Below, in pieces: positions 5,022 to 55,418 of a stretch of DNA of 64,000 bases. The notes beneath the pieces are model-generated. The model was not told where the DNA came from. It worked only from the letters and a program-made list of their open reading frames with translations, and made no database searches. The stretch is from an uncultured Treponema sp. (GTDB lineage Bacteria > Spirochaetota > Spirochaetia > Treponematales > Treponemataceae), in contig CAMKEG010000001.1 of NCBI GenBank assembly GCA_946411505.1, positions 1 to 64,000 of the forward strand, written 5' to 3'. The stretch's first letter is position 1; the number at the start of each line of letters is the position of its first letter. The position numbers and the translations under genes were made by a program.

Positions 5022-6248
5022 ATGATTTCTGCATATTTTAAAAATCTTCTTAACGACAAAACCGCCTCCGCGATTAGAAAAATGTTCGAGGAGGGAAAAA
5101 TCTTAAAGGCAAAATATGGAGCCGACAAGGTTTACGACTTTAGCTTGGGAAACCCCGACCTTGACCCGCCGCAAGAAGTCCTTGACGCGATAAAGGAAGT
5201 CGCCGCCGACACCAGCCACGGCGCCCACGGATATATGTCCAACGCCGGCTACGACGACTGCCGCGCCGCGATGGCCCAAAAAGAAAGCCAAGAGCAGGGC
5301 GTAAATGTCGACCCTTCTTGCGTTATTATGACGGTGGGCGCGGCCTCGGCGATTTCTTCCGTAATAAAGGCCCTTATAATGCCCGGCGAGGAAGTCCTTG
5401 TTCCGTCCCCGTTTTTTGCCGAATACACGCATTACGCCCACAACCACGGCGGCGTCCTTGTTCCCGTTCCGACAAAAAAAGACTTTTCGCTTGACGTGGA
5501 CGCGATAAAGGCCGCGCTCAACAAAAAGACTGTCGCGGTGATTATAAACTCGCCCAACAATCCGACCGGAAAAATTTATTCCGCCGCCGAAATCCGCGAG
5601 CTTTGTTCCGCGCTAAAGGAATTTGGAAAGGCCAACGGCCGCTATCCCTACTTGATTTGCGACGAGCCGTACCGCGCGATTGTCTACGACAATGTCGAAG
5701 TTCCGCCGGTGTTCCCCGAATACGAATACTCATGTGTTGTCACAAGCTTTGCCAAAAATTTAAGCTTGCCCGGCGAGCGCGTGGGCTACATTTGCGTAAA
5801 CCCCGCAAATCCCGAAAAGGCGGAATTTGTCGCGGCGGCCACGATGGCCTTTAGAATTTCCGGCTGCGTCAACGCTCCGGCCTTTTTCCAAAAGGTCGTC
5901 GCCAAAAGCTGGAACGCGCCGGTCGACTATTCCTCTTACTTAAAGAGGCGAAACTTATTGATGGAAGTTTTGGACAACGCGGGAATCGAGTACGTGAAGC
6001 CCCAAGGCGCCTTTTACATTTTCGCCAAAGTTCCGCCCGCCTTTGGCGACGACGATTCGGCCTTTGTCGAGGTTTTGGAAAAGAACTTGATTTTGTGCGC
6101 GCCCGGAAAAGGCTTTGGAATGAAGGGCTATTTTAGAATAGCCTATTGCGTTCCTGAAAAGACAATCGTAAATTCCAGGGAAGCCTTTTACAAGGCCGCC
6201 CATAGCAGCGGCAAGATAATCGCTGGCAAGCCCAAAAGTGTTTGCTAG
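5022..6248 (+). CDS. Pyridoxal phosphate-dependent class I/II aminotransferase
   Basis: VYDFSLGNPDLDPP, NSPNNPTGKIYS, SFAKNLSLPGERVGY (PLP lysine region). Confidence 0.9.
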   Translation: MISAYFKNLLNDKTASAIRKMFEEGKILKAKYGADKVYDFSLGNPDLDPPQEVLDAIKEVAADTSHGAHGYMSNAGYDDCRAAMAQKESQEQGVNVDPSCVIMTVGAASAISSVIKALIMPGEEVLVPSPFFAEYTHYAHNHGGVLVPVPTKKDFSLDVDAIKAALNKKTVAVIINSPNNPTGKIYSAAEIRELCSALKEFGKANGRYPYLICDEPYRAIVYDNVEVPPVFPEYEYSCVVTSFAKNLSLPGERVGYICVNPANPEKAEFVAAATMAFRISGCVNAPAFFQKVVAKSWNAPVDYSSYLKRRNLLMEVLDNAGIEYVKPQGAFYIFAKVPPAFGDDDSAFVEVLEKNLILCAPGKGFGMKGYFRIAYCVPEKTIVNSREAFYKAAHSSGKIIAGKPKSVC

Positions 6249-6299
6249 CCGCATAAGCCGCAACATTCGCGCTCGCAACCAAGCTCGCGCGAACAGCGG
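6249..6299 (+). repeat. Intergenic hairpin element, copy 1 (upstream of glgA)
   Basis: CCGC-AACA-TTCGCGC-N14-GCGCGAA-CA-GCGG preceded by ccgcataag; equal-length copy at 52315-52365. Confidence 0.65.
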
Positions 6300-6317
6300 T
6301 AATATTTTGGAGGTTCT

Positions 6318-7784
6318 ATGAAAATTTTAATGGTAAGTTCTGAGGCGGTTCCTTTTGCAAAGACAGGCGGTTTGGCCGACGCGGTGAGCGCGCTTTCAAT
6401 CGCTTTGACCAATATGGGCCACGAAGTGAAAATCGTGATTCCCCGCTACTATAAAATAGACAGAAAGACGCTCACGCCGCTTGCGGGCGCCATGGGAGTC
6501 GGCGTTGGCGGAGGCGAGGCTTGGACGGAAGTTTACAAGACCAAAATGCCCGGCTGTCCCAAGTGCGAGGTCTTTTTCATCGACCACGAGCAGAGCTTTG
6601 GCCGCGACGGAATTTACGGCGTTCCGGGCGAGACCGACTTTCACGACAACCCATACCGCTTTTCAATCCTTTGCCACGGCGCCTTCCAGCTTTGCCGAAA
6701 AATCAATTGGATGCCCGACATCATCCACGCTCACGACTGGTCGGCCGCGCTGGCCTTGGCGCTTTTAAAGCACGTTTACCGCTGGCAGGATTTTGGAAAC
6801 ACGGCCGGCGTTCTTTCAATCCACAACTTGGGCTACCAAGGCCAGTATTCCAAGGACAGTTTTCCCGCGCTGGGAATCGACTGGGGCCTTTACTACGGAG
6901 CGGGCTTTGAGCGAAACGGAGCGATAAACTTTTTGCAGGCCGGCATTTCTTGCGCCGACATGATAACGACCGTTTCTCCGACATACGCGCGCGAAATCCA
7001 AACGCCAGAAGGCGGCTTTGGAATGGACGGCCTTTTGCGCGTGCGAAGCGACGTAGTGAAGGGCATCCTTAACGGCTGCGACTTAAAGGCATGGAATCCC
7101 GCCGTTGACAAAAAAATTCCGGCCACATATTCCGTTAAGAGCATGAAGGGAAAGGCCGTCTGCAAGGCGGAATTGCAAAAGCAGTTTGGGCTGCCCGTAA
7201 ATCCAAACATTCCGATTTTTGGCGTGGTGACCCGCTTGGTCGACCAAAAGGGAATCGCCGAGCTTTTCGCGCCGACATACGGCTGCGTCTACAGCCTTTG
7301 CGCCAACATGGACATTCAGTTTGTGGTCCTTGGATCGGGCGAGTCTTGGTGCGAGAACGAAATCAACGTCTTGCAGTCAAAGCTTCCCAACTTCCGCGCC
7401 TACATCGGCTACAACGACGCGCTCAGCCACCTTATCGAAGCCGGAAGCGATTTCTTTGTCATGCCCAGCCACTATGAGCCTTGCGGCCTTAACCAAATCT
7501 ACTCGCTTATTTACGGAACGCTTCCGATTGTCCGCAACACCGGCGGCTTGGCGGACACCGTTCAAAACTACAACGAGCGGACAGGCGAGGGAACCGGCTT
7601 TATGTTCGACGCGATAAGCCCCAGCGCTGTTTACAACACAATCGGCTGGGCGGTTTACGCCTACTACAACAAAAAGGACCACATCAAGAAAATGCAGGAG
7701 CGCGGAATGAAGAGCGTCTTTAGCTGGGAAGACTCCGCCAAGCAGTACCTCGACGTTTATGACGAGGCTTTGGCAAGGAAGTAG
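6318..7784 (+). CDS. glgA: Glycogen synthase (GT5)
   Basis: MKILMVSSEAVPFAKTGGLADAVSAL, HAHDWSAAL, KTGG motif; C-terminal SHYEPCGLNQIYSLIYGTLPIVRNTGGLADTV. Confidence 0.95.
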   Translation: MKILMVSSEAVPFAKTGGLADAVSALSIALTNMGHEVKIVIPRYYKIDRKTLTPLAGAMGVGVGGGEAWTEVYKTKMPGCPKCEVFFIDHEQSFGRDGIYGVPGETDFHDNPYRFSILCHGAFQLCRKINWMPDIIHAHDWSAALALALLKHVYRWQDFGNTAGVLSIHNLGYQGQYSKDSFPALGIDWGLYYGAGFERNGAINFLQAGISCADMITTVSPTYAREIQTPEGGFGMDGLLRVRSDVVKGILNGCDLKAWNPAVDKKIPATYSVKSMKGKAVCKAELQKQFGLPVNPNIPIFGVVTRLVDQKGIAELFAPTYGCVYSLCANMDIQFVVLGSGESWCENEINVLQSKLPNFRAYIGYNDALSHLIEAGSDFFVMPSHYEPCGLNQIYSLIYGTLPIVRNTGGLADTVQNYNERTGEGTGFMFDAISPSAVYNTIGWAVYAYYNKKDHIKKMQERGMKSVFSWEDSAKQYLDVYDEALARK

Positions 7785-17676: not shown

Positions 17677-18234
17677 TTACAGTTGGGGAAGCTCCACCTT
17701 CCAGTCGCCGTTTTCCTTGACAAAGTTGTAGTAAACGGTGATTTTGGTCTTGTCGTCTTCGGTCTTGGTCACTTGGACGGCCTTGACAGATTCCGCCGAA
17801 TTGTAACGGATCTCGTCTATTTGGCGGCCCTTTCTTGAAGGAATGAAAACGTAGTTGAAGTAGTCGCCCAAATTCTTTAGCTTCACTCCCTTCAGCTCCT
17901 TGGGAAGCTTTTCGGAAGCCTTGGCCAATGTGTAGTTGTCGGACCAATATTTCTTTGAGTCCGCGGCGATGTAGTTGAGCCAAGAGCTGTAGTCCTTCTT
18001 TGACATTATGTTGTTTAGCTCCGCTATCTTTTTCATGATGGCGGCTTTGTCCGCGTTGAAAGTTTCCTTAGAGACCGCGCTGCCTTCAATCTTGTTGATT
18101 GAGCGCTGGTATTCCAAGTCGTCCTCTGTGGGCTCTTGAACAGCGGCCGGAGCCTCTTGCTTTGTGGACTCGCATGAAATCAGCGAAAGCGCCAACGCCG
18201 CCGAGGCCAAAAATATAATCGCGTTTTTCTTCAT
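17677..18234 (-). CDS. Hypothetical lipoprotein
   Basis: MKKNAIIFLASAALALSLISCES lipobox; upstream in-frame codons are likely non-coding. Confidence 0.65.
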   Translation of the reverse strand: MKKNAIIFLASAALALSLISCESTKQEAPAAVQEPTEDDLEYQRSINKIEGSAVSKETFNADKAAIMKKIAELNNIMSKKDYSSWLNYIAADSKKYWSDNYTLAKASEKLPKELKGVKLKNLGDYFNYVFIPSRKGRQIDEIRYNSAESVKAVQVTKTEDDKTKITVYYNFVKENGDWKVELPQL

Positions 18235-18367
18235 AAGGAACATTATACAGCGCCTTGTCTTAAAAATCAAGATGCGCGCCGCAAAAAAAACGGCTTGCGC
18301 CCGCGCCGCTTCAAATCGCGCGGAACTCTTGACATTTTCTATAATAAGGTGGAAAATAGCGGTATTT

Positions 18368-21300
18368 ATGATAAAAAGTTTAAAGTTGAACAATGTCTAT
18401 GCCTATTTATGTTTGGCCTGCGCCCAAAATAAATTATTTTCCCGAGCGGCGATTTTGCTCGCGGCGCTTTTTTTCTCTCTGTCAATTTTTTCATGCGACA
18501 ATTCCTCTAGCGACAACATGGCTCTTTTTGCGGCGCCAACGCCCGCGCAGCCTGCCGCGACCGTAAACGAAAACGGAAAACAAATGGTTTCCTTTTCAGG
18601 CTGCCTGGGGGGAGCGGCGGGCGCCTTTCCCGCGCGAATGTCGGCGCAAGTTTCCGCGCTGCTTGACGGCGGACAAAGCGACGGCCTTTCCATGAGCGCC
18701 GCGCCTACGCTTGACACGGAAGCGGGCGGCGGCTACGAAATGTTCGCCACGGCCACGGCGGAAGGCGTGCCTGCCGTTGAAGGAGTCTTTGGAACGACCG
18801 CCGCCGACAAGCGCTTCTTTAGCATGAGCCTTGAGGTTGGAAAGACTTGGAGCGTTGTTTGCGGAATCCGGGCCGCGGGCGGCGGCTCCGTCATGGAGGA
18901 CTCTTTCGACTTTGAGGCCAAAATAACTTCCCCGGTCCTTTCTCACACATTCAACCTTACGCCCAAAAAAGACGGAAGCGGCTCCGTGGCCCTTTCCGTT
19001 ACGGCGGATTCAACAGTGGACAAAGCCGTGGCCCTGTGCTTTGACGAAGCCTGGATGCAGGCGGCGCCTGAGGGCGCGGAAAAGGCGCTTGACTTGACCT
19101 CTACCGCCGCGCTGAGCGTGGGCTCGTTAAAGAGCGGCTCTTATGAAGTTAGCCTTAACTTTTTTAAGGACGACGGAAGCGGCGGCCGCGTCTTCTTGTA
19201 TTCTGTTTTGCAGACCATAAACGTCTTTGACAACGCCGCCACCGACATGTGGATTTCTTCTGCCGGCGAGGGAAAAATCCAGACGGCCGCGGACGGAAAG
19301 ACTTCGCTTGTCGTTGACGGCTCGGAAATAATGGCCTCCGCGCGAACGATTTTTTACGTAAGCGACGCGGCTGGAGCGGCGGCCTTGAGAGTTTCCGTCC
19401 CCAGCGACTCCAACAGCGGAAGCGCCTACGAGCCGCTTGAAAGCCTTGAGCGCGTGGCGCAAATAATCTCCGCCGCCGGAAATTCCGCCAACAAAAAAGA
19501 GTATAAAATTTTTATAAACGGAAATGTTCCCTGCAACGCAAGCTTGGACTCAAGCCTAGACGCGGTGGCCTCCGGAATAACGATAACGGGCCTTGGCGCG
19601 TCCGGCTCTTCCGACGCGCTGCAAGGAAACGGTTCAAATAGCGTCGTGACGCTTGCGACAAAGGCTCCCGTCACGATAAAGAATTTAAGCGTTACAGGCG
19701 GCGGCGGCTCCAGCGGCGCGGGCGTCAACATTGCCGCAAGCGGGGCGCGTCTTGTCTTGGCGAGCGGCGCCAAAGTTGTTGGAAACACGGCGGCTTCCTC
19801 CGGCGGCGGCGTGAGCGTTTGCGCCGGAGCGGAGCTTGACATGCTGGCCGGCTCCGAAATCAGCGCGAACGTATGCGATGGAAGCGGCGCCGGCGGAGTT
19901 CAAAACCACGGAACTTTTAAAATGTCCGGCGGAACCATCGAAAACAACAAGGCCAACTATGTTGGAGCCGTCTTTGTTGAAGAAGGCTCTATTTTTGAAA
20001 TAAGCGGCTCCGCCTCAATTCCTTACGGGGCGTTGGACTCAAGCGGAAATCTTGTGACGGGCGAAGGAAAGAACGACGTTTTTCTTTCCGCGATTACTGG
20101 CGGCGGCGGAGCCGTTGAAACAATCACCGTGGCGGGAAACCTTTACGCAAGCGGCTCTGTGGCGACAATCCACGCCAAGGACTGGCCGCGCGGAAAGCAA
20201 GTCTTGGTCGCCGGAGGAAGCGTGTCCTCGCTGTCTGACGACATCTTGGAAAAGTTTGACTTTACCGACACGGACTTTCATGTAAACATAAACAAAAGCG
20301 ACGCGCGGCAGGGCCTTCTTGCCGGAGACATTTACGTGGCAGGAAGCGGCTACCGCCATTGCCTTGCCGCCGGAAGCGACGCGGACGGAGTTGCCGGAAC
20401 AAAGAACGCGCCGTTCGCTTCTATAAGTTACGCCGCGTCAAAGATTTTGGACGGCGGAAAGAACACGATTCTTGTGGACGGAAGCCTGGGCGCCCAAGAA
20501 ATCACAAGCGGCCTTCTCGCGGCCAACTGTTCCGAGCTTACGATAAAAGGCTGGAGCGACGCCACGCATCCAGCGCTTGGCGACGACGGCCTTCCTGTAA
20601 ACAAACTCGACGCTGGCGGAAGCGGAAGCGTCTTTACTACGCAAAGCGCCGTTCCAATTGTAATGGAAAACCTTATGATTACCCGCGGAAACAACACTGT
20701 CGGCGACGGAAAAGGCGGCGGCATTTACGTGGCCGGCGGAGCGGACGTTACGCTAAAGGCGGGCGCTGTGGTCGCGGGCAACACGGCTAAAAAAGGCGGC
20801 GGCGTTTATGTTGACGGAAGCTTTACCCTTGACGGAGGAACGATAGGCGACGCAAGCAAGACTGAACACGCGACGCGCCTTGGATATTCAAATAACGCCA
20901 CTGACACTTATTCTTTTGGCGGAGGCATTTTCTTTTCCAACACAGGAAAAGTGAACATAAAAAGCGGCGTCATCGCATATAACTTTGCCTTTAGAGGCGG
21001 CGGAATAGCAAGCGAATACACCGCATACAGCCCGGACTCGCAGTTGACAATTGAGGGCGGCGAAATACGCCATAATTGCAGCTATTCGGAAAATGGAAAT
21101 CTTGGAAATAATTCTTTTGGCGGCGGAGTTTTTGTAAACGGCTCCAAATTTTCTTTTACGGGCGGAGAAATCTACGAAAATTATGGATGTGATGGCGGCG
21201 GAGGACTCTTCCTGCAAAACGCAAGCGGCGCTTCAATGTCTGGCGGAAGCATTCATGACAATGCGTATACCGACGGGCTCGGCTGCATGAAACGCGCCAC

Positions 21301-24300
21301 AGACCTTTTGCTGTGGGACAACGCTGTTTTGAACATGAGCGGCGGAAAGATTTATTCCGCCAGTCAAAAGGAGCGCGGCGTCATCATTTGGAACGCGACG
21401 GACTCGCTGAGCATGAGCGGAAGCGCTTTTATAAGCCAAAACACGCCGGTCTTGCTTGGCGAGCCTGGCGGCAGCGTCAACACTTGCATAACAGTCGCGG
21501 GCGCTCTAACCCAGCCCGACCCGGACGACGAGAACGTCAAGAACGCCTACATTGTTCCTCTCCAGTGGACGCGCGGCCTGCAAGTTTTAAACGCGAGCGC
21601 CTCCATTCCCGCAGCGGAGCGGACAGCCCTTATCGCCGCAAACATAGGCCGCTTTGGGACGGTTGACGAAGAATTTGACGTAAAGGCAAAGGGCGCCGCG
21701 GGCTTCATAAGCGCGCCGATTTGCGTGGCGGCCTCGAACGGCACCCGAAGGTCTCCGGTCAACGAGGGCGCTTTGGGCCAAAAAGATTGGGGCGCGCCAA
21801 GCGAGCTGGACAGCGCTCGCGGAACCAGAAGCGAGCCTTTTGCCAAGATGAGCCAAGCCGTGGCGCAAATGACAGACAATACCGCTCCCTACGAGATTCT
21901 TATAAACGGAACTATAAAAGGCTACGACTACGCCCACGCGGAATTTGACGGCGCGAAAGTTGGCGACGTGACAATCAGGGGCGTGAACGGCGACAACTCC
22001 ATCGACGTTCTTGACGTTGACAAACTTGGCGCGGGCAACACGTCCAAATCTATAGCCCTTCAGTTTAGCGGAACTGGCGCGGCAAGCAAGATGTCCGCGA
22101 CAATCCAAAACCTAAAGATAACCGGCGCCAACAATCTGGGCGGCGGCGACTCTTATCCTCACGGCGGCGGAATCTACGCGCATTATGCCAATATAAGCCT
22201 TGGAAAAGGCGTCTTGATTACCGGGAACAAGGCCTATTATGGCGGCGGCGTTTACCTTGACGGCAGCAATCTTTTTGTTTACGCCGACGCGCGCATAGGC
22301 CAAGACGCAAGCGGAACCGCGACAGGCGAGAGCGATTGTTCCAACTACGCGTCCAGCGAAGGCGGCGGCATTTATTGCGCTGGCGGCGACGTTTACCTTG
22401 GCTACAAGGAAGACAAGACTGTGGCCGCTGGCGACGACGCGTGGACTGGCGGAATTTACCGCAACTGCTCATACGGCGGCGGTGGAATTCGAATTGGCAA
22501 TGGAAGCCAAATCCAAATTGCGGCTGGAAACATAAGCCGCAATTTGGCAACTAAAGAAGGCGGCGGCATTTACATACAGTCGGGAGAAAACAACGCCGTT
22601 ATATCAGGCGGAAAAATAGAAGAAAACCAATCCAAGGCGACAGGACTTTATGAGGGTGGCGGAGGCATTTGCAATTTGGGTTCTCTTGTCGTAAAAGATG
22701 ACGCTGAAATCTTGGGCAACAAAGCCAATAAGGGCGGCGGCGTTTATAACGGCTACTCCGGAGGCGCACTTTTTGTTCTAGGCGGAAAAATCCATGACAA
22801 CACGGCGGATACCTCGGGCGGCGCCGTGTGCCATATAGCTGGAACGTTCAGCATGGGCGGAACGGCCTGGATTCCCTACGGAGTGACAACTAGCGGCGGC
22901 GGAACGACAACTACAGCCACGGGCGCGGGCAAAAACGACGTTTTCATTTGGGATGAAAAATATATCACGATAGCCAGCGCTCTTTCTTTGCCAACAGGCG
23001 CAAGCGGCGCCAACGCCACAATCACGCCGTACCAATGGAAGCGCGGAACTGTAATCGCAAAGGGCAAGGACGGCGGCGTTATTCCGTCAGGAGGCAACGG
23101 CGGTATCGCGCTTGCGGCCGAGAGCGCCTTAGACCGGTGGAGGATGTATCTTTCCAGCGACAAAAAGAAAATAAAAATAATGGCTCCGATTTGCGTGGCT
23201 CCCGCCGATTATTCCGAAACGCCGGGCTCAAATTCCAACATCGGAACATACTCAAAGCCCTACGCGACTGTGACGAAGGCTTTGACGGATTTGAACGACC
23301 CCGAAGTGGACTACGAGATTTACATAAAGGGAACAATCATCGACCATGTGACTATAGACCAAACAACGACGGAAAACGCAAAAAGCCTTACCCTTGAAGG
23401 CTACAATTACAGCACGCTTGGTTCTTCTGCGAACGACACCTTGTCCGGCGGCTGCGACGCGGACACGGCATGGGAGGCTACTGGCATCGGCAGAACGCTT
23501 GGCATAATGGGCGACGTTCCTGTGACGATTAAGGGGTTGATGATTACAGGCGGAAAAGACAGCAACAACGGCGGCGGAATCTTTGTAGGAAGCGGCGCCA
23601 ATTTGACCTTGAGCTACTTTACCCGCGTTAAGGAAAACTACTCCGCGGCGAACGGCGCCGGCGTTTATGTGAACGCAGGCGGAACATTGAACGTCAAAAA
23701 AAATGTCACGGTCAAGGACAACAAAATGATTGACGCCAGTACGGGAGCGCAAACAAACAGCAACGTGTTCCTTTCCAGCGGAAAAGTCATAAACATCCTA
23801 GATAGCCTTAAAGGCTTAGGCTCGGAAGGCGATTCCGAAATATGGGTGTCCACAGAGGACCAGCCTACGATAAGCGGCTCGACCGTATACACGGTGACCA
23901 TAACGTATAACTACAGCTACGCAAACAGCGACCATCCAAGCAAATTCTTTACAAGCGACCAAAATTACGGATTTGCTTCTTGGAACGGTGATGACGAGGC
24001 CGAGTTGGGCGTTCACGGCGGCGGCATCAGCATAGAGGACATGTACAAGGATGTGGCGCTTAGCCTCGACAAGACTTGGGCGCAAAAGGGAGGCGACGAC
24101 AAGATTACTGCAGGCGGAACGGTTGGCGGCCAGCCTATGGACTTTGACGACGACACAAGCGAAAACTACACGACCCTTGCATTTGACGTTAAAACACACG
24201 GAGAGTCTGCCGCCGGATATTATTCAAAAGTCGGAAACAACGCCGTCAAGTTTAGCGGCTCCAAGGGCAAGCTTCCCGCAGGCGACTACGTTTTGCTTGT

Positions 24301-25243
24301 CACTGGCGTTCATGGCGGAAAGACCTACAGCGCGAGCTTTGACATAAGGATTATGGAAAACGCGACCGTTCCGGACGGCTATGTCATGACCGGCGGCGAA
24401 ACGGTCACGGGCGCTGTTGGAACGGAGTCTCCTTCCAATGTGTTCATAGCCGGACGAAGCGTGGCGATTCCCGTCATCATCGCGTGCGACCACGAGGTCA
24501 CTCAAAGCGAATACGAAAAGTATTGCTGTTACGACGGAACCAATCGTCCTGATGAAGTGACGGGCAAGGGAGAAAACTATCCTGTCTACTATGTAAACTG
24601 GTGCGACGCGATTGTTTACTGCAACCTAAAAAGCCTTGCCGACGGACTAACGCCTGTTTACAGCATTGACGGAGTGACAAACCCGCTAAACTGGAAGACA
24701 AGCGGCAACGTGACTGAGGGAACCGGCGACGAGGCCGGAAAATACTATGTTCCCGGGGCCATGTCCACCGCCGTCCAAAACAAATGGAAAAACATAGTCT
24801 TTGACCAAAGCGCGGACGGCTGGCGCCTCCCCACCGAGGTTGAATGGGAATACCTTGCCCGCGCGGCCAACAAAGAGGATTATGGTTACAGCGGAAGCGA
24901 CACTGTCAACGACGTCGCTTGGTGGTCCGGAAACAGCGCGGTAGACGGCGTGAAGAAAACTCATGAAGTCAAGACGAACAAAACTGGCGTAGACTGCTTC
25001 AACAGCCTTGGCATTTACGACATGAGCGGAAACGTCTTCGAATTATGCTGGGACTGGAGAGCCGCGTCGATATCAGCCGATACTAAGTACACCGGCCCCG
25101 ACAGCGGCTCTGAAAAAGTTCGACGCGGCGGCTCTTACGCTGAAGCAAACTCATACTCTAGCGTTTCAAATCGAGATAGGTCATTGCTTCTGTATGTACC
25201 GAATGAACAGACGGGCTTCCGCGTGGTCCGCACAGTTCGCTAG
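18368..25243 (+). CDS. Giant lipoprotein: repeated parallel beta-helix (Pmp/adhesin-like) modules with C-terminal SUMF1/FGE-fold domain
   Basis: Lipobox LFFSLSIFSC; many G(N/D)xAxxGGGVYV repeats; C-terminal DGWRLPTEVEWEYLARAA...GIYDMSGNVFELCWDW...RRGGSY...TGFRVVR. Start M69 of the ORF. Confidence 0.85.
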   Translation: MIKSLKLNNVYAYLCLACAQNKLFSRAAILLAALFFSLSIFSCDNSSSDNMALFAAPTPAQPAATVNENGKQMVSFSGCLGGAAGAFPARMSAQVSALLDGGQSDGLSMSAAPTLDTEAGGGYEMFATATAEGVPAVEGVFGTTAADKRFFSMSLEVGKTWSVVCGIRAAGGGSVMEDSFDFEAKITSPVLSHTFNLTPKKDGSGSVALSVTADSTVDKAVALCFDEAWMQAAPEGAEKALDLTSTAALSVGSLKSGSYEVSLNFFKDDGSGGRVFLYSVLQTINVFDNAATDMWISSAGEGKIQTAADGKTSLVVDGSEIMASARTIFYVSDAAGAAALRVSVPSDSNSGSAYEPLESLERVAQIISAAGNSANKKEYKIFINGNVPCNASLDSSLDAVASGITITGLGASGSSDALQGNGSNSVVTLATKAPVTIKNLSVTGGGGSSGAGVNIAASGARLVLASGAKVVGNTAASSGGGVSVCAGAELDMLAGSEISANVCDGSGAGGVQNHGTFKMSGGTIENNKANYVGAVFVEEGSIFEISGSASIPYGALDSSGNLVTGEGKNDVFLSAITGGGGAVETITVAGNLYASGSVATIHAKDWPRGKQVLVAGGSVSSLSDDILEKFDFTDTDFHVNINKSDARQGLLAGDIYVAGSGYRHCLAAGSDADGVAGTKNAPFASISYAASKILDGGKNTILVDGSLGAQEITSGLLAANCSELTIKGWSDATHPALGDDGLPVNKLDAGGSGSVFTTQSAVPIVMENLMITRGNNTVGDGKGGGIYVAGGADVTLKAGAVVAGNTAKKGGGVYVDGSFTLDGGTIGDASKTEHATRLGYSNNATDTYSFGGGIFFSNTGKVNIKSGVIAYNFAFRGGGIASEYTAYSPDSQLTIEGGEIRHNCSYSENGNLGNNSFGGGVFVNGSKFSFTGGEIYENYGCDGGGGLFLQNASGASMSGGSIHDNAYTDGLGCMKRATDLLLWDNAVLNMSGGKIYSASQKERGVIIWNATDSLSMSGSAFISQNTPVLLGEPGGSVNTCITVAGALTQPDPDDENVKNAYIVPLQWTRGLQVLNASASIPAAERTALIAANIGRFGTVDEEFDVKAKGAAGFISAPICVAASNGTRRSPVNEGALGQKDWGAPSELDSARGTRSEPFAKMSQAVAQMTDNTAPYEILINGTIKGYDYAHAEFDGAKVGDVTIRGVNGDNSIDVLDVDKLGAGNTSKSIALQFSGTGAASKMSATIQNLKITGANNLGGGDSYPHGGGIYAHYANISLGKGVLITGNKAYYGGGVYLDGSNLFVYADARIGQDASGTATGESDCSNYASSEGGGIYCAGGDVYLGYKEDKTVAAGDDAWTGGIYRNCSYGGGGIRIGNGSQIQIAAGNISRNLATKEGGGIYIQSGENNAVISGGKIEENQSKATGLYEGGGGICNLGSLVVKDDAEILGNKANKGGGVYNGYSGGALFVLGGKIHDNTADTSGGAVCHIAGTFSMGGTAWIPYGVTTSGGGTTTTATGAGKNDVFIWDEKYITIASALSLPTGASGANATITPYQWKRGTVIAKGKDGGVIPSGGNGGIALAAESALDRWRMYLSSDKKKIKIMAPICVAPADYSETPGSNSNIGTYSKPYATVTKALTDLNDPEVDYEIYIKGTIIDHVTIDQTTTENAKSLTLEGYNYSTLGSSANDTLSGGCDADTAWEATGIGRTLGIMGDVPVTIKGLMITGGKDSNNGGGIFVGSGANLTLSYFTRVKENYSAANGAGVYVNAGGTLNVKKNVTVKDNKMIDASTGAQTNSNVFLSSGKVINILDSLKGLGSEGDSEIWVSTEDQPTISGSTVYTVTITYNYSYANSDHPSKFFTSDQNYGFASWNGDDEAELGVHGGGISIEDMYKDVALSLDKTWAQKGGDDKITAGGTVGGQPMDFDDDTSENYTTLAFDVKTHGESAAGYYSKVGNNAVKFSGSKGKLPAGDYVLLVTGVHGGKTYSASFDIRIMENATVPDGYVMTGGETVTGAVGTESPSNVFIAGRSVAIPVIIACDHEVTQSEYEKYCCYDGTNRPDEVTGKGENYPVYYVNWCDAIVYCNLKSLADGLTPVYSIDGVTNPLNWKTSGNVTEGTGDEAGKYYVPGAMSTAVQNKWKNIVFDQSADGWRLPTEVEWEYLARAANKEDYGYSGSDTVNDVAWWSGNSAVDGVKKTHEVKTNKTGVDCFNSLGIYDMSGNVFELCWDWRAASISADTKYTGPDSGSEKVRRGGSYAEANSYSSVSNRDRSLLLYVPNEQTGFRVVRTVR

Positions 25244-25256
25244 CAGGAAGGGGGGA

Positions 25257-28200
25257 ATGATGATGAAGATGAACAAGATTTTTTCAATAAACACAATCCT
25301 CCGCTTGGCGGCTGGCGCGATTTTGGCGGCGGCGCTTTTTGGCTGCGCCAACATGGGGGAATCTCCCGCGTCAAGCGCGGGAGTGACAGGCGGCGCTGGA
25401 GTGGGTGCTGGCGCGGGAGCTGGAAGCGGCTCGGCCACGGTGAGCGGCTCGCTTTGCTTTAGCGGCGCTATGCCCAGCGAGATTGCCGCGCTTGTCGCCC
25501 CTGTGTCATTGTCGGGCGCGTCCCGACAATCTTTTGACAATACCTCCCGGTCGGCCTTTCCGCAAACGCCAAGCGCGAGCGGCTTGACAATCACGGTCTA
25601 CGCCGAAGAAGTGACGGAAAGCGAGACAAAGCTGAGTTATAGCGGAACAGTTACTGACGACGGTTCCGGAAACGTAAGCTACACTGTGGGAATCCCCGTG
25701 ACCAGCGGAAAAAAATACCGCGTCCACGCGGTTGCCAAAAAGGACGACGAAAAGCTTCTTTTTGGAACGAGCGATCTTTTGGACTTTACGGAAAACGCGG
25801 AACAATTTTACACAAGCTGCGACATAACGCTTGGCGCGGGGCAATCCGATACAGGCAAGGGCGGTGTGAACCTTACTGTGAATGTACAAGGCTTGGACGT
25901 GTCCACCGCCAAGATGATTTACAAACCAAAAGGCTCAACGGAGTCAATAAGTGAATATGGCTCGTCCGGTTTAGGCGGCAACGTGCGGGTTTTTTCCGTA
26001 GGATTTGAAGAAGGCGAGTTCGATCCGATTTCTGCCATTGCGTCCGGCGAATATACTATGATATTTGAATTTTATTCGGGCGCGGAAAGTTCCGAGAATC
26101 TATTGTATTCATTCACGGAGAACGTAAGCGTTTTTGACAGGCTTGTGACCGACACTTGGGTAAAAAACGGCGCCGAGCCCTGGCTTACGCCCGACTCGTC
26201 AGGAAACATCGCTTGCAAAATCACCAGCGCTATGGTCGACGGCTTTAAGCTTACGGAAATCTACGTGGACACAAGCAAGCAGACTACAAACCCGAATGCT
26301 GAAGATGGTTCATACACAACTGCGAGCGGAACCTTCCTCAACCCCAAGACATCGTTTGCCGACGCGCTGGCCATGCTGCAGGACGCAAGCAAGGATTACA
26401 CGATTTTCATCAAGGGAAAGATTGGCCCCCAGACGATTCCTGACAGGCTGAAAAAATCTGGCTCAGGCGGCGGGTACACCTACGCCAAAAGCCTTACCCT
26501 TTGCGGGGCGGGCGACCCCGAAGACGGAGTTCCCACGGACATCATTGACGCGGCCGGCGCGGCAGGAACCTCCGCCCTCACAATAGCGACGACAGTTCCC
26601 GTAACGATAAAAAATCTAAAGATTACAGGCGGAACGGGAACATTAATAAATGGCACCGGGTCGTTTGGCTCTTCAATAGCTTATGGCGGAGGAATTTATC
26701 TTTCCGCCACTGGCGGCTCCCTTACCCTTGGGAAAGGCGCCTATGTGTCGGACAACAGCGCGGATCCTAGCTCTGGCAGCTGCAGCTCAAAACAAAGCTA
26801 TGGCGGCGGAATTTGCGCAACCACTCCATGCGAACTGAACCTTTTGAGCGGCTCCGTGGTGTCGGCTAACAACGCTAAAGGCACCGGCCAGGGCGGAGGA
26901 ATTGCAATATTTAAGCCTGCGGACTCAAGCGACGGCTCAGGCAACGTGAACATTTATGACGGCGCTGTGATAGAGAAGAACCAATCAAATTGGGTTGGAG
27001 GAGGAATTTTTTACTTTGCTGACACTTCTGTAGAAACTACGATGAGCGGCGGCCGCATAAGCGGAAACACCGCTACAAGTAACGGCGGCGCGATTTTCGG
27101 CTCCAGCGGAACGTTTACTATGACAGGCGGCGTGATAGGAGATGATTCTTCTACGATAACCAGAGCCGCAAAATACGGCGAGCGGACGTCCGTCAAGACC
27201 AACAAAGCGGGAGATTACGGCGGCGCCTTTTATTTTGTCAATGAAAGCACAGTCGGGAATAAATTTAATATAAACATTTGCGGCGGAACCGTCGCCTACA
27301 ATTGCGCGCAAAAGAACGGCGGCGCCTTTTACGTGTGGGGCGGCAACTTGACCGTCCAAGGCGCCCAAGTAAAATGGAACGGAGCCTACGGCGTAAGCGC
27401 CACAAGCGCTGGCGGCGGCGCGATTCATTTGAAAGAATGCAGCGAACTCCATCTTGACGGCTGTTCAATCATCGGGAATGAATGTTATGACACCTACAGC
27501 CATGGCGGCGCTATTTGTATTCCCCATATTTCCACAATCGCTAAAGTTCCAAAAGTATATTTAAAAGGCGCTGTTTCCATTCCGAGCGACGCCGCGAAAA
27601 AGAACGACATCGGCCTAATGAGCTATAGCTCATCGAGCGATTATATGGCATATCCCTCGTTATATATTGAAGGAAAACTAACAGGAAGCGGAACCGTCGC
27701 CACAATCACGCCCACTTTGTATAACATTAATCGCCAAGTCCTCCAGCTTGCCGACGGCGTCACGGACGTAAACTTCGCGCTGGAGTGCTACAAGTTCGCC
27801 GTCACCCCGCAAGCAAGCGCGACCCCCGCGCAAGAGTGGGCGGTCGCCGGCGACGGATATTTGGCCAAGGTCACCACGCTGACGGGGACAAGCATTGATG
27901 GTTTTACTGTGGATGACTTTAACGAAGGCGACAAGGTCGTTTATGCCTTTGACTCAAGTGTTACCAACGATCAGATTGATGCGTTTACAAGAAAGCTATA
28001 CAATAAAACGGAAAACCAAAACCTAAGCGGAAAAAAAGTGGGCGAAGGCTCTGTCCTTGACTTTTCAAAAGCCACCAATCTTACAAGCTTGGGATTTAGT
28101 TGGACAAACAATGGTGTTTTTCAGCCCTTTGACATAATTCTTCCGCCCAATTTTGATACTTCCAAGTTTAGCAACCAAACATTTGCTTGGGCAATTAAGA

Positions 28201-28718
28201 ACGCAAAGAATGTTATTGCGACGCCAAAGGCAAGCGGCGGCCTTGTCTCGGAGGACGGCGTTGTTTACAACAAGAACAAAACGACGATCTTCTTCTATCC
28301 CGGCGGAAAAACCGCAACATCGTTTGTTGTTCCAGACGGCGTGACGACCATTCCGCGAAATTCGTTCTCGTACAACATTTACCTTAAGAACATAACATTG
28401 CCTGAGGGAGTCACTTCTATCGCTTGGAATGCTTGTTGCGCCACCTCGATTGAGTCTATCAACGTTCCGTCAACCGTAAAAACAATAGCGAATGAAGCGT
28501 TCAGCAATTCAGCGTCTTTCACTTCGCTTGCTTTTGCAAATCCAAACGGCTGGAAATTAGGCCCTTCCCAGGACTCTGCCATACCCGTAGAAGACTACCC
28601 CAGCGATCCAGCGGACCTCAGCGATCCAGCGGACGCCGCGAGATGGTATAAGACGAATGCATATAATGTTTCTGGCGCTACAAACAGCAACGGCTATAAA
28701 GTGCTATGGCATGACTAG
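25257..28718 (+). CDS. Large lipoprotein: beta-helix modules with BspA-type LRR_5 C-terminus
   Basis: MMMKMNKIFSINTILRLAAGAILAAALFGCAN lipobox; GNTATSNGGAIFGSSGTFTMTGG repeats; FVVPDGVTTIPRNSFSYNIYLKNITLPEGVTSIAWNACCATSIESINVPSTVKTIANEAF. Confidence 0.82.
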   Translation: MMMKMNKIFSINTILRLAAGAILAAALFGCANMGESPASSAGVTGGAGVGAGAGAGSGSATVSGSLCFSGAMPSEIAALVAPVSLSGASRQSFDNTSRSAFPQTPSASGLTITVYAEEVTESETKLSYSGTVTDDGSGNVSYTVGIPVTSGKKYRVHAVAKKDDEKLLFGTSDLLDFTENAEQFYTSCDITLGAGQSDTGKGGVNLTVNVQGLDVSTAKMIYKPKGSTESISEYGSSGLGGNVRVFSVGFEEGEFDPISAIASGEYTMIFEFYSGAESSENLLYSFTENVSVFDRLVTDTWVKNGAEPWLTPDSSGNIACKITSAMVDGFKLTEIYVDTSKQTTNPNAEDGSYTTASGTFLNPKTSFADALAMLQDASKDYTIFIKGKIGPQTIPDRLKKSGSGGGYTYAKSLTLCGAGDPEDGVPTDIIDAAGAAGTSALTIATTVPVTIKNLKITGGTGTLINGTGSFGSSIAYGGGIYLSATGGSLTLGKGAYVSDNSADPSSGSCSSKQSYGGGICATTPCELNLLSGSVVSANNAKGTGQGGGIAIFKPADSSDGSGNVNIYDGAVIEKNQSNWVGGGIFYFADTSVETTMSGGRISGNTATSNGGAIFGSSGTFTMTGGVIGDDSSTITRAAKYGERTSVKTNKAGDYGGAFYFVNESTVGNKFNINICGGTVAYNCAQKNGGAFYVWGGNLTVQGAQVKWNGAYGVSATSAGGGAIHLKECSELHLDGCSIIGNECYDTYSHGGAICIPHISTIAKVPKVYLKGAVSIPSDAAKKNDIGLMSYSSSSDYMAYPSLYIEGKLTGSGTVATITPTLYNINRQVLQLADGVTDVNFALECYKFAVTPQASATPAQEWAVAGDGYLAKVTTLTGTSIDGFTVDDFNEGDKVVYAFDSSVTNDQIDAFTRKLYNKTENQNLSGKKVGEGSVLDFSKATNLTSLGFSWTNNGVFQPFDIILPPNFDTSKFSNQTFAWAIKNAKNVIATPKASGGLVSEDGVVYNKNKTTIFFYPGGKTATSFVVPDGVTTIPRNSFSYNIYLKNITLPEGVTSIAWNACCATSIESINVPSTVKTIANEAFSNSASFTSLAFANPNGWKLGPSQDSAIPVEDYPSDPADLSDPADAARWYKTNAYNVSGATNSNGYKVLWHD

Positions 28719-50857: not shown

Positions 50858-51565
50858 ATGAACAAGCCTCCGCCTGAAACTAATTGCCGCCGGCCGTCTT
50901 CGTTTTTTGCCTTTGCCGCAGCCTTTTTTTGGGGGTCGGCCTTGTGCGCGGCGGCTTTTTGCTCTTGTTCCGACGATCCGATAAACTTTTCTTATGTCCA
51001 ACCGTATTTTGTTCTGGATTGGGAGGACGCCGAGGCTTTGCCCAAGCAGCGGCTGAGCGTTTTTATCAATTTTTCGTCAAATGTAAGGCGCCTGGATTCG
51101 TTCTCCGTAAAAAACTCAAATTATTTGTGGAATGTCGAGGCGCCCGTCTTGCTGCAAGCCGGCGACAGGCAGTGGGCGGGCAGCGTCCATTTGGAGCCGC
51201 CTGTTTTTTTGAACGGCGAGGCCGGTTCCTTTTCAAGCGGGCTTTATGAGGTTGAGTGCGTTGACGCCGCCGGAAAATCCTCAAAGGGAAATTTTTCCCT
51301 TGGATACAACGCGGCGCTTTTTGAAGCCAAGGCGGACGATGTTGAGAAAATCTTGAGCGGTCCGATGAAAAGGGTGGCCGTGTATTCCGAAAGCTCAGAA
51401 CTTTTGTACTTTGACGTCGAGAAGCCGGAATGGCTGTCCGACGAGAGCGTTTTTAAGTCTGTGAAAAATTCTTCTTTTTTGAGAAGGACATTGACGGCAG
51501 GAAATGTAATTTGTTTTATGCCAAAAATATACAAGGATGGAGAAAAGTCTGATGGACTTGAGTGA
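50858..51565 (+). CDS. Hypothetical lipoprotein
   Basis: Hydrophobic N-terminus ending GSALCAAAFCSCSDD; immediately downstream of 50856. Confidence 0.6.
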   Translation: MNKPPPETNCRRPSSFFAFAAAFFWGSALCAAAFCSCSDDPINFSYVQPYFVLDWEDAEALPKQRLSVFINFSSNVRRLDSFSVKNSNYLWNVEAPVLLQAGDRQWAGSVHLEPPVFLNGEAGSFSSGLYEVECVDAAGKSSKGNFSLGYNAALFEAKADDVEKILSGPMKRVAVYSESSELLYFDVEKPEWLSDESVFKSVKNSSFLRRTLTAGNVICFMPKIYKDGEKSDGLE

Positions 51566-52274
51566 CAGTTCCGGCGACGCGCCGGGCGATTCGACAAGCG
51601 AAAATTCATTTTATCGAACGATTAAAACCTATGTGATGAGGGCCGGCCGAATGACCGCCGCGCAGGAAAAGGCCTACAACGAGCTTTCGCACATTTATTG
51701 CGTTCCCTTCCAAGAAACGCCCTTGAATTTTGTCGAGATTTTTGGAAACACAAATCCGATTGTCGTGGAAATCGGCTTTGGAATGGGCGCGGCGACAATT
51801 CAAATGGCAAAGGAAAATCCCAACATAAACTATTTGGGAATAGAAGTCCACAAGCCCGGCGTGGGCCGCGTTTTGAGCGAAATCCGCGCGAACGACTTGA
51901 AAAACCTTTACGTGATTGAGCATGACGCGCTTGACGTTTTGGAAAAAATGATTGGCGAAAACTCCGTGGACGGCTTTCACGTTTTCTTTCCCGACCCTTG
52001 GCCAAAGAAAAAGCACCACAAGCGCCGCCTTATGAGAAGGCCCAACACAAACTTGCTGCAAAAAAAATTGCGCGAGGGCGGCTACCTTTACATGTGCACC
52101 GATTGGGAGGAATACGCCCAAGAGGCCCTTGAAGAGCTAATGGCGACGGAAGGCCTTAAAAACAAATACGAAGCCTTCGCTCCCCACCAAGAGTGGCGGC
52201 CAATGACAAAGTTTGAGCGGAAGGGAATCGAGGCCGGCCGCGAAATTCGCGAGCTGTTTTTTGTTAAGGATTAG
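51552..52274 (+). CDS. trmB: tRNA (guanine-N7-)-methyltransferase
   Basis: PIVVEIGFGMGAATIQMAKENPNINYLGIEVHKPGVGRVL; FHVFFPDPWPKKKHHKRRLM. Confidence 0.94.
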   Translation: MDLSDSSGDAPGDSTSENSFYRTIKTYVMRAGRMTAAQEKAYNELSHIYCVPFQETPLNFVEIFGNTNPIVVEIGFGMGAATIQMAKENPNINYLGIEVHKPGVGRVLSEIRANDLKNLYVIEHDALDVLEKMIGENSVDGFHVFFPDPWPKKKHHKRRLMRRPNTNLLQKKLREGGYLYMCTDWEEYAQEALEELMATEGLKNKYEAFAPHQEWRPMTKFERKGIEAGREIRELFFVKD

Positions 52275-52314
52275 CGGCAATATAAGCGGACGCAAGCCAA
52301 AAAGCGTTCGCTGG

Positions 52315-52365
52315 CCGCATAAGCGGCAACATCCGCGCTCGTGACTCAACTCGCGCGGACAGCCG
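52315..52365 (+). repeat. Intergenic hairpin element, copy 2 (upstream of ligA)
   Basis: CGGC-AACA-TCCGCGC-N14-GCGCGGA-CA-GCCG preceded by ccgcataag; same length as copy 1, compensatory changes in both stems. Confidence 0.65.
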
Positions 52366-52383
52366 TACTGATGGAGGGTTCTT

Positions 52384-54306
52384 ATGGCCGACTTGTTCGA
52401 AAGCGCCCGCATAGACGAGCTTGCTTCTCTTATAAAAAAATACCAGGACTCCTACTACAACGGCGAGGCCGAAATCGAGGACGCCGAATTTGACAAGCTT
52501 TGGGACGAGCTAAAGGCCCTTGACCCAAACAATCCAATCCTAAAAAAAGTCGGCGCCGATTCGGGAAACTTTGAAAAGGCCGCGCACGTTATGCCGATGG
52601 GAAGCCAGGAAAAGGCCGCCGACCCCGAGCAGTTTTTGGCCTGGGCTCAAAAGCATGTTTACCCCGAATACTTGGTTGAATACAAGCTGGACGGCGCTTC
52701 GCTTGAGCTTCAGTACCAAAAGGGCCGCCTTGTCCGCGCTGTGACCAGAGGCGACGGCTCTGTCGGCGACGACATAACGGCAAACGCAAAAAAAATGAAG
52801 GGCGTTTTAAGCGTCTTGGAAAAGTCGCCTGACTTTACCGGAGGAGTTCGCGGCGAGGTCATCATGACCCACAGCGTCCACAAAAAATATTTTTCCGACA
52901 AGGCCAATTGCCGCAACGCCGCCAACGGCCTTATGAAGCGTAAGGACGGCGAAAAATCGGAGTTCCTTTGCCTTATAACTTACGACGCGCTTGCGACTGA
53001 CGGCGGCGCGAATCCCTTTAAGGACGAAGAGGAAAAAATAGCTTGGCTTGTCCAAAACGGCTTTGAAAGCGTTCCCCTTAAGATTTGCAAAAGCCCGGAG
53101 GAAGTCATAGACTACCGCGCCGCCGTCATGGAAAAGCGGCCAAGCTTGGAATACGACATCGACGGCCTTGTAATAAAGGAGCGCGAGATAAACCTTGACG
53201 ACGCAAGCCGCGCCCGCCCCGACAGGCAGATAGCCTTTAAGTTTTCGCTTGAAGAGGCGGTGAGCGTAGTGCGCGATGTTGAATGGAGCGAAAACGGCGC
53301 GACTTACACGCCTGTCGCGATTTTTGACGCGGTTCAGCTTGCCGGAACGACAGTCCAGCGCGCGAGCCTTGCAAACCCCGACACGCTAAGAAAGCTAGGC
53401 GTCCAAATCGGAAGCCATGTTGTTGTCGTAAAGCGCGGCGAAATCATTCCAAAAATCGTGGGGCTGGTCGCGCATGAGGACGACGCCAAAAACTGCAAGC
53501 CGATTGTCTTTCCAAAAAAATGCTCGGTTTGCGGCGCCTCTCTTATGGACACGCCAAGCCGCCTTTACTGTCCCAACAAGGCTTGCCCCAAGCGAGTCCT
53601 GCACCAAATCTTTAAGTGGATTGAATGCGCCGACATACGCGAAATGGGCGACGCTTTGGTAAACGCGCTTTTTAACGACAAAAAGCTGCGTTCGATTTCC
53701 GACATTTACTCTTTGGACGAAGCGGCGCTTACGCCTTACTTTTTAAACCAAGAAAGCATCGAAAAGGAAAAGAATTCTCTTGGAGCCAAGAACGTCGTCG
53801 CGTCGATAAAGGCGCATTCCACGTTAAGCCTTGCGCAATTTGTGGCGGGCTTTGACATTGAGGGTATCGGCGAGCAAATGGTGGAGAAGGCGGTAGAAGG
53901 CGGCTTTGACAGCCTTGAAAAGCTTTTGTCCGCCACGCCGGAGGAATTTGAAAGCGTTTACGGCTTTGCCCAAATCACCGCCGCCGCCTTCGCGCAAGGC
54001 TTGGCCGAGAACGCCGCCGAAATGCGCTCTTTGGCCAAAAGCGGCGCGATAACGATAAAGGAAAAAAAATCCGGCGCCTTGGCAGGCCTTTCATTTTGCT
54101 TTACCGGCGAGCTAAAGACAATGAAGCGCGCGGACGCGGAAGCCTTGGTAAAAGAGAAGGGCGGCTCGGCAAAAAGTTCTGTCACAAAGGATTTGTCATA
54201 TCTAGTCACAAACGATAAAAATAGCGGCTCTGGCAAAAACGCCAAAGCCGCCAAATTTGGAATCCAGATTATTGACGAAGATGAATTCTTAAGGCTCGTT
54301 AAATGA
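52384..54306 (+). CDS. ligA: NAD-dependent DNA ligase
   Basis: VEYKLDGASLELQYQKGRLVRAVTRGDGSVGDDIT; Zn finger CSVCGASLMDTPSRLYCPNKACPKR; C-terminal BRCT. Confidence 0.95.
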   Translation: MADLFESARIDELASLIKKYQDSYYNGEAEIEDAEFDKLWDELKALDPNNPILKKVGADSGNFEKAAHVMPMGSQEKAADPEQFLAWAQKHVYPEYLVEYKLDGASLELQYQKGRLVRAVTRGDGSVGDDITANAKKMKGVLSVLEKSPDFTGGVRGEVIMTHSVHKKYFSDKANCRNAANGLMKRKDGEKSEFLCLITYDALATDGGANPFKDEEEKIAWLVQNGFESVPLKICKSPEEVIDYRAAVMEKRPSLEYDIDGLVIKEREINLDDASRARPDRQIAFKFSLEEAVSVVRDVEWSENGATYTPVAIFDAVQLAGTTVQRASLANPDTLRKLGVQIGSHVVVVKRGEIIPKIVGLVAHEDDAKNCKPIVFPKKCSVCGASLMDTPSRLYCPNKACPKRVLHQIFKWIECADIREMGDALVNALFNDKKLRSISDIYSLDEAALTPYFLNQESIEKEKNSLGAKNVVASIKAHSTLSLAQFVAGFDIEGIGEQMVEKAVEGGFDSLEKLLSATPEEFESVYGFAQITAAAFAQGLAENAAEMRSLAKSGAITIKEKKSGALAGLSFCFTGELKTMKRADAEALVKEKGGSAKSSVTKDLSYLVTNDKNSGSGKNAKAAKFGIQIIDEDEFLRLVK

Positions 54307-55257: not shown

Positions 55258-55418
55258 TTTAAACTCCGTCACTTTATTATCGACACATTGGCGGCAAATT
55301 TTATTGCTTGCAAGAATAAAAATTGAAAGATTGCCGCGTAAGTCGCAACGCTTCGCTTGCGGATTTTTTGTAAATGCGCTAGAATAGTCAGGATATATTC
55401 AATTAAAGGAGCTTTGTT

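Follow-up and report, generated by a model that had tools for sequence, protein, structure and literature searches.

A dispersed two-hairpin repeat, placed mostly in sense between co-directional genes, in one clade of Treponema

Small palindromic repeats are common in proteobacteria, ERIC being an element of the enterobacteria. The ERIC repeat (also IRU or RU-1) is a 127 bp imperfect palindrome, found in dispersed intergenic copies that are co-transcribed with both neighbours, and its orientation matters for the effect that it has on the stability of the upstream mRNA (PMC2229807). YPAL (RU-2) of Yersinia, at 168 bp, is not A+T-rich, carries internal inverted repeats, generates variable direct repeats on insertion, is linked to upstream genes and has both filled and empty sites in close relatives (PMC2229807). 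The REPs and BIMEs tagged with GTAG or CGTC are palindromic and sit behind coding regions, where their end often supplies the TAG stop of the flanking open reading frame; the CGTC type has been reported in Spirochaetes, without a dedicated transposase (PMC3733652). The intergenic repeats NEMIS (of Neisseria), Ype and Efa give rise to RNA hairpins that have been proposed to alter the fate of the co-transcribed mRNA (PMC1590033, PMC2229807), and other stem-loop repeats are known near the 3' ends of genes (PMC1590033). A search of the literature for Treponema together with REP or intergenic repeats returned nothing on the repeat that we describe here.

The DNA analysed (‘the window’) is a stretch of 64,000 nucleotides from an uncultured Treponema sp. 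(assembly GCA_946411505.1, contig CAMKEG010000001.1, positions 1 to 64,000). A preliminary description had reported a 51-nt structured element upstream of glgA, with a ‘covarying twin’ upstream of ligA; both are found, at 6249-6299 and 52315-52365, with the stems, the AACA/CA internal loop and the 14-nt apical segment as described, and the two compensatory differences between them are genuine, one in the outer stem (C-G/G-C) and one in the inner stem (U-A/C-G). They do form a pair, but not only a pair, as the genome holds 54 full-length copies and the window a third, shortened one. Likewise, the 51 nt contain a true hairpin but not the full unit: similarity between the two window copies spans 95 nt (6207-6301 against 52273-52367, 81% identity), and the 51-nt stretch, a 3' hairpin preceded by the tail of a 5' one, forms the 3' portion of a two-hairpin repeat of ~96 nt (Table 1). 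The interior of the 5' hairpin (A) in copy 1 is variable and includes CAAGCCcAAAA. A consensus scan of the glgA junction found no local promoter or terminator; orthologues of glgA were present in all 16 of the 16 genomes searched. The genes flanking the third copy are apparently divergent.

Table 1. Positions of the repeat, its parts and its neighbours in the window, and of a second small repeat found nested within it
Feature	Position	Strand	Basis or remarks
Copy 1 (96-nt repeat), junction of PLP aminotransferase gene with glgA	6205-6300	+	Covariance model, 111.1 bits
Hairpin A, copy 1	6208-6252	+	GCGGC (6208-6212) / GCCGC (6248-6252); RNAalifold, pair counts
AUAA linker from hairpin A to hairpin B, copy 1	6253-6256	+	Alignment of host-genome copies
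Hairpin B, copy 1	6258-6299	+	CCGC-AACA-TTCGCGC-(14 nt)-GCGCGAA-CA-GCGG; same structure as in the preliminary description
TAG stop of aminotransferase gene, within repeat (end of module A)	6246-6248	+	ORF list, sequence
Pyridoxal phosphate-dependent aminotransferase, upstream gene of copy 1	5022-6248	+	NCBIfam NF005305, 496.6 bits
TTGGAGG, Shine-Dalgarno of glgA, 7 nt past hairpin B	6307-6313	+	Sequence
glgA (glycogen synthase), downstream of copy 1	6318-7784	+	TIGR02095, 301 bits, first 300 aa
Copy 2 (96-nt repeat), preceding ligA	52271-52366	+	Covariance model, 103.9 bits
TAG at 5' edge of copy 2, stop of upstream ORF 51537-52274	52272-52274	+	Sequence, ORF list
ligA (NAD-dependent DNA ligase), downstream of copy 2	52384-54306	+	TIGR00575, 244 bits, first 300 aa
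Third, shortened copy (hairpin A and short B: GTCGCAACGCTTCGCTTGCGGA)	55288-55363	+	Covariance model, 38.1 bits, E 1e-8
Second small repeat, four copies identical over 60 nt	G000:C9:91178-91237, C8:1884-1943, C1:511761-511820, C1:336686-336745		
Second small repeat, loci	L224, L225, L227-L229, L235-L237		

With the window copy as query, blastn returned 40 places at E < 1e-11 in the host genome (2.82 Mb, 14 contigs), window copies included; the 54 full copies are those scoring above 70 bits with a covariance model, which also picked up some 35 partial or composite copies at E values up to about 1e-3. Applied to 200 Treponema species genomes, the model, built from the host genome only, identified ten carriers and gave no match at E 0.001 in the other 190. 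These ten carriers fall into one clade in a tree of GlgA and LigA from 17 genomes, and are monophyletic among the genomes sampled; going by isolate names, the clade consists mainly of MAGs from rumen or reticulum. A pattern scan of GTDB gave, among the matches listed, Treponema RUG459, RGIG9962, RGIG7863, UBA4377, RUI024 and RUG239, and Spirochaetaceae RUG13809, RUG14489 and RUG14523, whilst a phylum-wide sample of 298 genomes yielded a single match outside the genus, at chance level. Weak matches in other families (G059, 24.9 bits; G378, 26.9 bits) and one on a Rudaea contig (L098) were likewise taken as chance, and a viral origin was set aside, there being no exact match among 2.9 million viral contigs. 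Rfam 15 contains no family that the repeat matches at gathering score (best weak match 17 bits, against 48), in agreement with the earlier remark that it matches no RNA family, and an Rfam scan of the window returned tRNAs only.

The 38 host-genome copies with standard architecture can be aligned throughout, reading nTAGCGGC, a variable interior with CAAGCCnAAAA, GCCGC and ATAA in the 5' part, and GCSGC AACA TTCGCGC TC..loop..TC GCGCGAA CA GCSG and TA in the 3' part. Hairpin A thus has a GCGGC/GCCGC stem and a long loop; hairpin B has a 4-bp outer stem, the AACA/CA internal loop, a 7-bp inner stem and then a 2-bp extension. RNAalifold assigns 18 pairs to this alignment, nine of them with double changes. 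Loci from other species, matched with the model from the host genome alone, served as an independent test set (115 matches, 99 distinct copies). In these copies 98.3% of paired cells are able to pair, compared with 92.1 +/- 0.3% in shuffles and at most 55% with slid partners, and two-sided changes occupy 97 cells against 26.8 +/- 3.6 in shuffles, cells that do not represent independent events, because the sequences are related. The alignment of other-species copies was fitted to the model and so leans towards the structure; the double changes are not a product of the fitting. They take the form of CG (58) and GC (40) states in the outer stem and of UA (70), CG (22) and AU (5) in the inner stem. 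One-sided changes number only five cells, every one of the G-U type, and G-U pairs account for 5 of 1773 cells. Folded singly, the two window copies give z scores of -1.7 and -2.9, which alone are not convincing; an inner stem within hairpin A has a self-pairing energy of -3.69, against -3.21 +/- 0.13 kcal/mol for swapped halves, with strong inner pairing in a minority of copies only.

The two-hairpin structure and its covariation are clearly kept by evolution. The ‘selected structure’ suspected from two copies is therefore evident in copies that played no part in the model, and the covariance search proposed with it did return many intergenic matches with covariation. In most functional RNA helices G-U pairs are less rare than in this repeat, and the near absence of G-U and one-sided intermediates means that the constraint may lie in the RNA or in a DNA hairpin, or may arise in part from palindrome correction; the rarity of G-U pairs may reflect selection on DNA hairpins.

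Copies at orthologous positions also evolve slowly in place. Across 28 orthologous pairs, with 25% divergence at the fourfold sites of adjacent genes, the stem arms of hairpin A are changed at 0.7% and 0% of positions (interior 12%) and those of hairpin B at 4.5% and 3.6% (internal loop 0-3.6%, B loop 7%), although apparent conservation is inflated in the linker and in B's 5' arm, as an exact pattern covering both was used to retrieve many of the loci; this pattern includes neither B's 3' arm nor A's 5' arm, yet the loci had to be recognisable. Most pairs with changes in the B stem have equal numbers on both arms (1+1, 2+2 or 3+3; for example L082/L168 with 1+1 and L112/L034 with 3+3), and some pairs of higher divergence may represent independent re-insertions.

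Flanking genes were predicted for 146 distinct copies with a purpose-written codon-usage ORF caller. The majority (102/146) lie in sense between two co-directional genes, 20 follow the 3' end of a sense gene and face a convergent one, and six stand between a divergent gene and a sense gene; at most two of the 146 are antisense to both neighbours, the remainder being ambiguous or at contig ends. The downstream start codon of sense-sense copies is usually 13-26 nt from the repeat, commonly 16-24, with a mode at 18-20. The upstream gene, for its part, often stops inside the repeat, at offset -4 in 37 copies, -15 in nine and -44 in four, such that the repeat's own TAG is the upstream stop in 37 copies (copy 2 shares this offset) and module A holds the stop in others. 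The left edge reads xTAG with x variable, GTAG being found in 15 of 166 copies, and TA stands at both edges of most copies. Among the genes that follow host-genome copies are glgA, ligA, fliW, flgK, thyX, two fabG, fabV, trpA and trpG, as well as fusA, cmk, panC, argJ, lgt, feoA, mscS and nif-like genes; as these share no function, the repeat is not a riboswitch regulon. The trait common to its neighbours is the sense position directly behind a stop codon.

Occupancy varies amongst the carriers. At the glgA junction, G000, G136 and G191 have the full repeat and G181 has a related composite, while G085, G129 and G035 carry short or possible remnants and G108, G192 and G166 lack it altogether; at the ligA junction, G000 and G108 have the repeat, G181 retains a remnant, G085 and G191 show apparent scars, and the other carriers have none. 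No copy can be indispensable, since even close species differ by gains and losses of copies. In 54 junctions without a full repeat the median stop-to-start distance is 19 nt, as compared to 111 nt in their filled orthologous counterparts; the genes at empty junctions, such as AGATAATATG (L107) and TTTTAGGAGGCAATATG (L254), are tightly packed, and are separated by the repeat where it is present. A comparison of L153 (filled) with L254 (empty) places the old Shine-Dalgarno to the left of the insert and a new one beside the start codon. Direct repeats of 9-12 nt surround the insert at few loci (L128, L268 and L092; p = 0.0025 for self against shuffled flanks), a weak statistical signal with few real cases, and no constant target-site duplication was found. 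At a nif-like gene junction (L128 and L039 compared with L271), 12-nt direct repeats occur on both sides and differ between species (GCGATAGGAGAA, TTGATAGGAGAA), as if the junction had been filled twice independently.

As regards the means of spread, the Y1/RAYT transposase domain PF01797 was found in none of the ten carriers (assemblies 82-99% complete), and is present in 2/10 non-carriers and 5/14 control genomes. A link to retro-elements was considered and dropped, RVT_1 being present in 2/10 carriers versus 1/10 non-carriers, which amounts to no association. Several copies contain a second small hairpin repeat (~60-70 nt, ACGG..CCGTTTTGC..AAGAA..TACTTGC-hairpin-GGGCAAT), nested at two fixed sites, with insertion into hairpin B (ACATT^CGCGC) or, for a related form, between A and B (GCAT^AAGC), and with no clear target duplication; its presence inside the 96-nt repeat indicates that carrier genomes hold more than one small-repeat family.

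Other repeats were noted in passing. A shortened form (hairpin A and a short B, GTCGCAACGCTKCGCTTGCGGA) occurs at 55288-55375 of the window and at L223 (C1:849459-849663), L226 and L231; it stands in tandem at C1:849459 and twice, where the intergenic region is longer, immediately precedes promoter-like sequence, and is possibly a separate subfamily. The start of the window contains terminator-like direct repeats around AGGCTGCCGGGCTTTTTTTT (36-68, 309-341 and 505-537), along with a 69-nt direct repeat around the same motif (250-318 and 696-764, 80% identical). Two very large ORFs at 18164-28718 (2359 and 1174 aa), with internal repeats of the GGCGGCGTTTAT type, perhaps encode repetitive surface proteins.

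Synthesising these observations, we give a probability of roughly 60% to the reading that this is a non-coding, lineage-restricted mobile repeat of the ERIC/YPAL/REP kind, which acts in mRNA as an intercistronic hairpin. The preliminary description had left the choice between a cis-regulatory RNA, a REP-like repeat and a protein-binding site; we favour the REP-like option because there are dozens of dispersed copies, with variable occupancy in close species and unrelated downstream genes, the last of which also counts against a cis-regulator of a shared gene set. We suggest that the repeat settles in short gaps between the genes of an operon or behind its last gene, almost only in sense, by a route for which the domain searches offered no enzyme. 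Transcribed within the mRNA, it would fold into hairpins A and B joined by AUAA, with its 5' part giving stop codons to the upstream gene and hairpin B placed directly upstream of the Shine-Dalgarno of the next. Post-transcriptional action seems the most likely, the hairpins marking a boundary that is protected or processed within the polycistronic mRNA; the two genes might at the same time be uncoupled in their translation, as a junction of ~19 nt would become one of ~111 nt with its own initiation site. By analogy with the published elements, we propose that the two hairpins stabilise the mRNA or serve in its processing, and also keep the translation of the two genes apart; the strictness of the sense orientation and the slow change of resident copies suggest that the repeat probably works in mRNA as well as being mobile.

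Selfish DNA is an unlikely explanation, but one to be taken seriously: the hairpins would be needed only for mobilisation, by an enzyme that recognises hairpins or single strands, with no role in mRNA, and position and orientation would follow from target choice and the purging of harmful insertions. The near absence of G-U pairs, the differing occupancy between close species, the nesting of a second small repeat and the direct repeats that flank a few inserts can all be read in this way, and a sense insertion beside the TA of an old stop would remake TAG. Saying this, a sense bias of 102 versus 2 between co-directional genes is hard to obtain from neutral insertion, orthologous copies change more slowly than fourfold sites, with paired changes in place, and neither the Y1 transposase (0/10 carriers) nor a reverse transcriptase (only 2/10) offers a ready vehicle. 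Somewhat more doubtful is an extended form of our preferred reading, a mobile ‘operon linker’, that is, a transposing module that carries a pair of insulating hairpins along with stop codons, and possibly a Shine-Dalgarno as well, and that selection on its RNA structure retains as a unit uncoupling neighbouring genes; here, sense-only insertion would suggest RNA- or transcription-linked targeting by some enzyme.

The paired changes might instead be mutational, with template switching from one arm of an imperfect palindrome to the other making the two match; such a process would produce 97 two-sided against 5 one-sided cells with hardly any G-U intermediates, but we think it improbable, as it accounts neither for how little the stems and the unpaired AACA/CA loop change nor for the orientation bias. 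Less credible still is a cis-regulator specific to a set of co-regulated genes, whether as riboswitch, leader or protein-bound regulon: whilst the site directly upstream of the Shine-Dalgarno, the strong covariation and conserved internal loops that could bind protein would suit such a role, the downstream genes are functionally unrelated, 20/146 copies lie at 3' ends with no gene downstream to regulate, and orthologues of the same genes in sister species are without the repeat. Recombination sites like the attC of integrons share the hairpin architecture and a sense site directly behind stop codons, but the flanking genes here are ordinary syntenic chromosomal genes rather than cassettes, and an RYYYAAC/GTTRRRY core pair was not seen by eye at the ends, leaving this the most far-fetched of the explanations considered.

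The repeat is unusually clean, in that it is sense-only, occupies a site from stop to RBS, shows double changes and is spread over ten close species with filled and empty junctions; whether inserted repeats alter operon output, and by what means repeats lacking a recognisable transposase come to spread in a single orientation, are now testable questions.

Set against the described families, the Treponema repeat resembles ERIC in being many-copy, intergenic, palindromic, similar in size and variably occupied between close relatives, and differs in consisting of two separate short hairpins that are almost exclusively in sense; to our knowledge there is no sequence relation with ERIC, nor with NEMIS, Ype or Efa. 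YPAL, like it in having internal inverted repeats, in not being A+T-rich and in the filled and empty sites of close relatives, is of another size and host, and only a minority of the Treponema copies have direct repeats. Tagged REPs, whose ends likewise often provide a TAG stop, are units of 20-40 bp, whereas the present repeat, though dispersed, palindromic and located behind genes, has ~96 nt and two hairpins; the unpaired GTAG end of the GTAG class is found in only 15/166 copies and its RAYT (PF01797) in 0/10 carriers, and in place of the unpaired CGTC, TGTC or CCTC on a single 8-9 bp stem of the CGTC class there are the ends nTAGCGGC and GCSGTA on two hairpins. The Neisseria elements have terminal inverted repeats, of which the Treponema repeat has no convincing example; nor does it have those of an IS-derived MITE, its ends GCGGCAA and CSGCTGT being inverted repeats, by eye, over a few bases only. 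We therefore regard it as one more small palindromic intergenic repeat, notable for its strict sense orientation at junctions between a stop codon and a Shine-Dalgarno.
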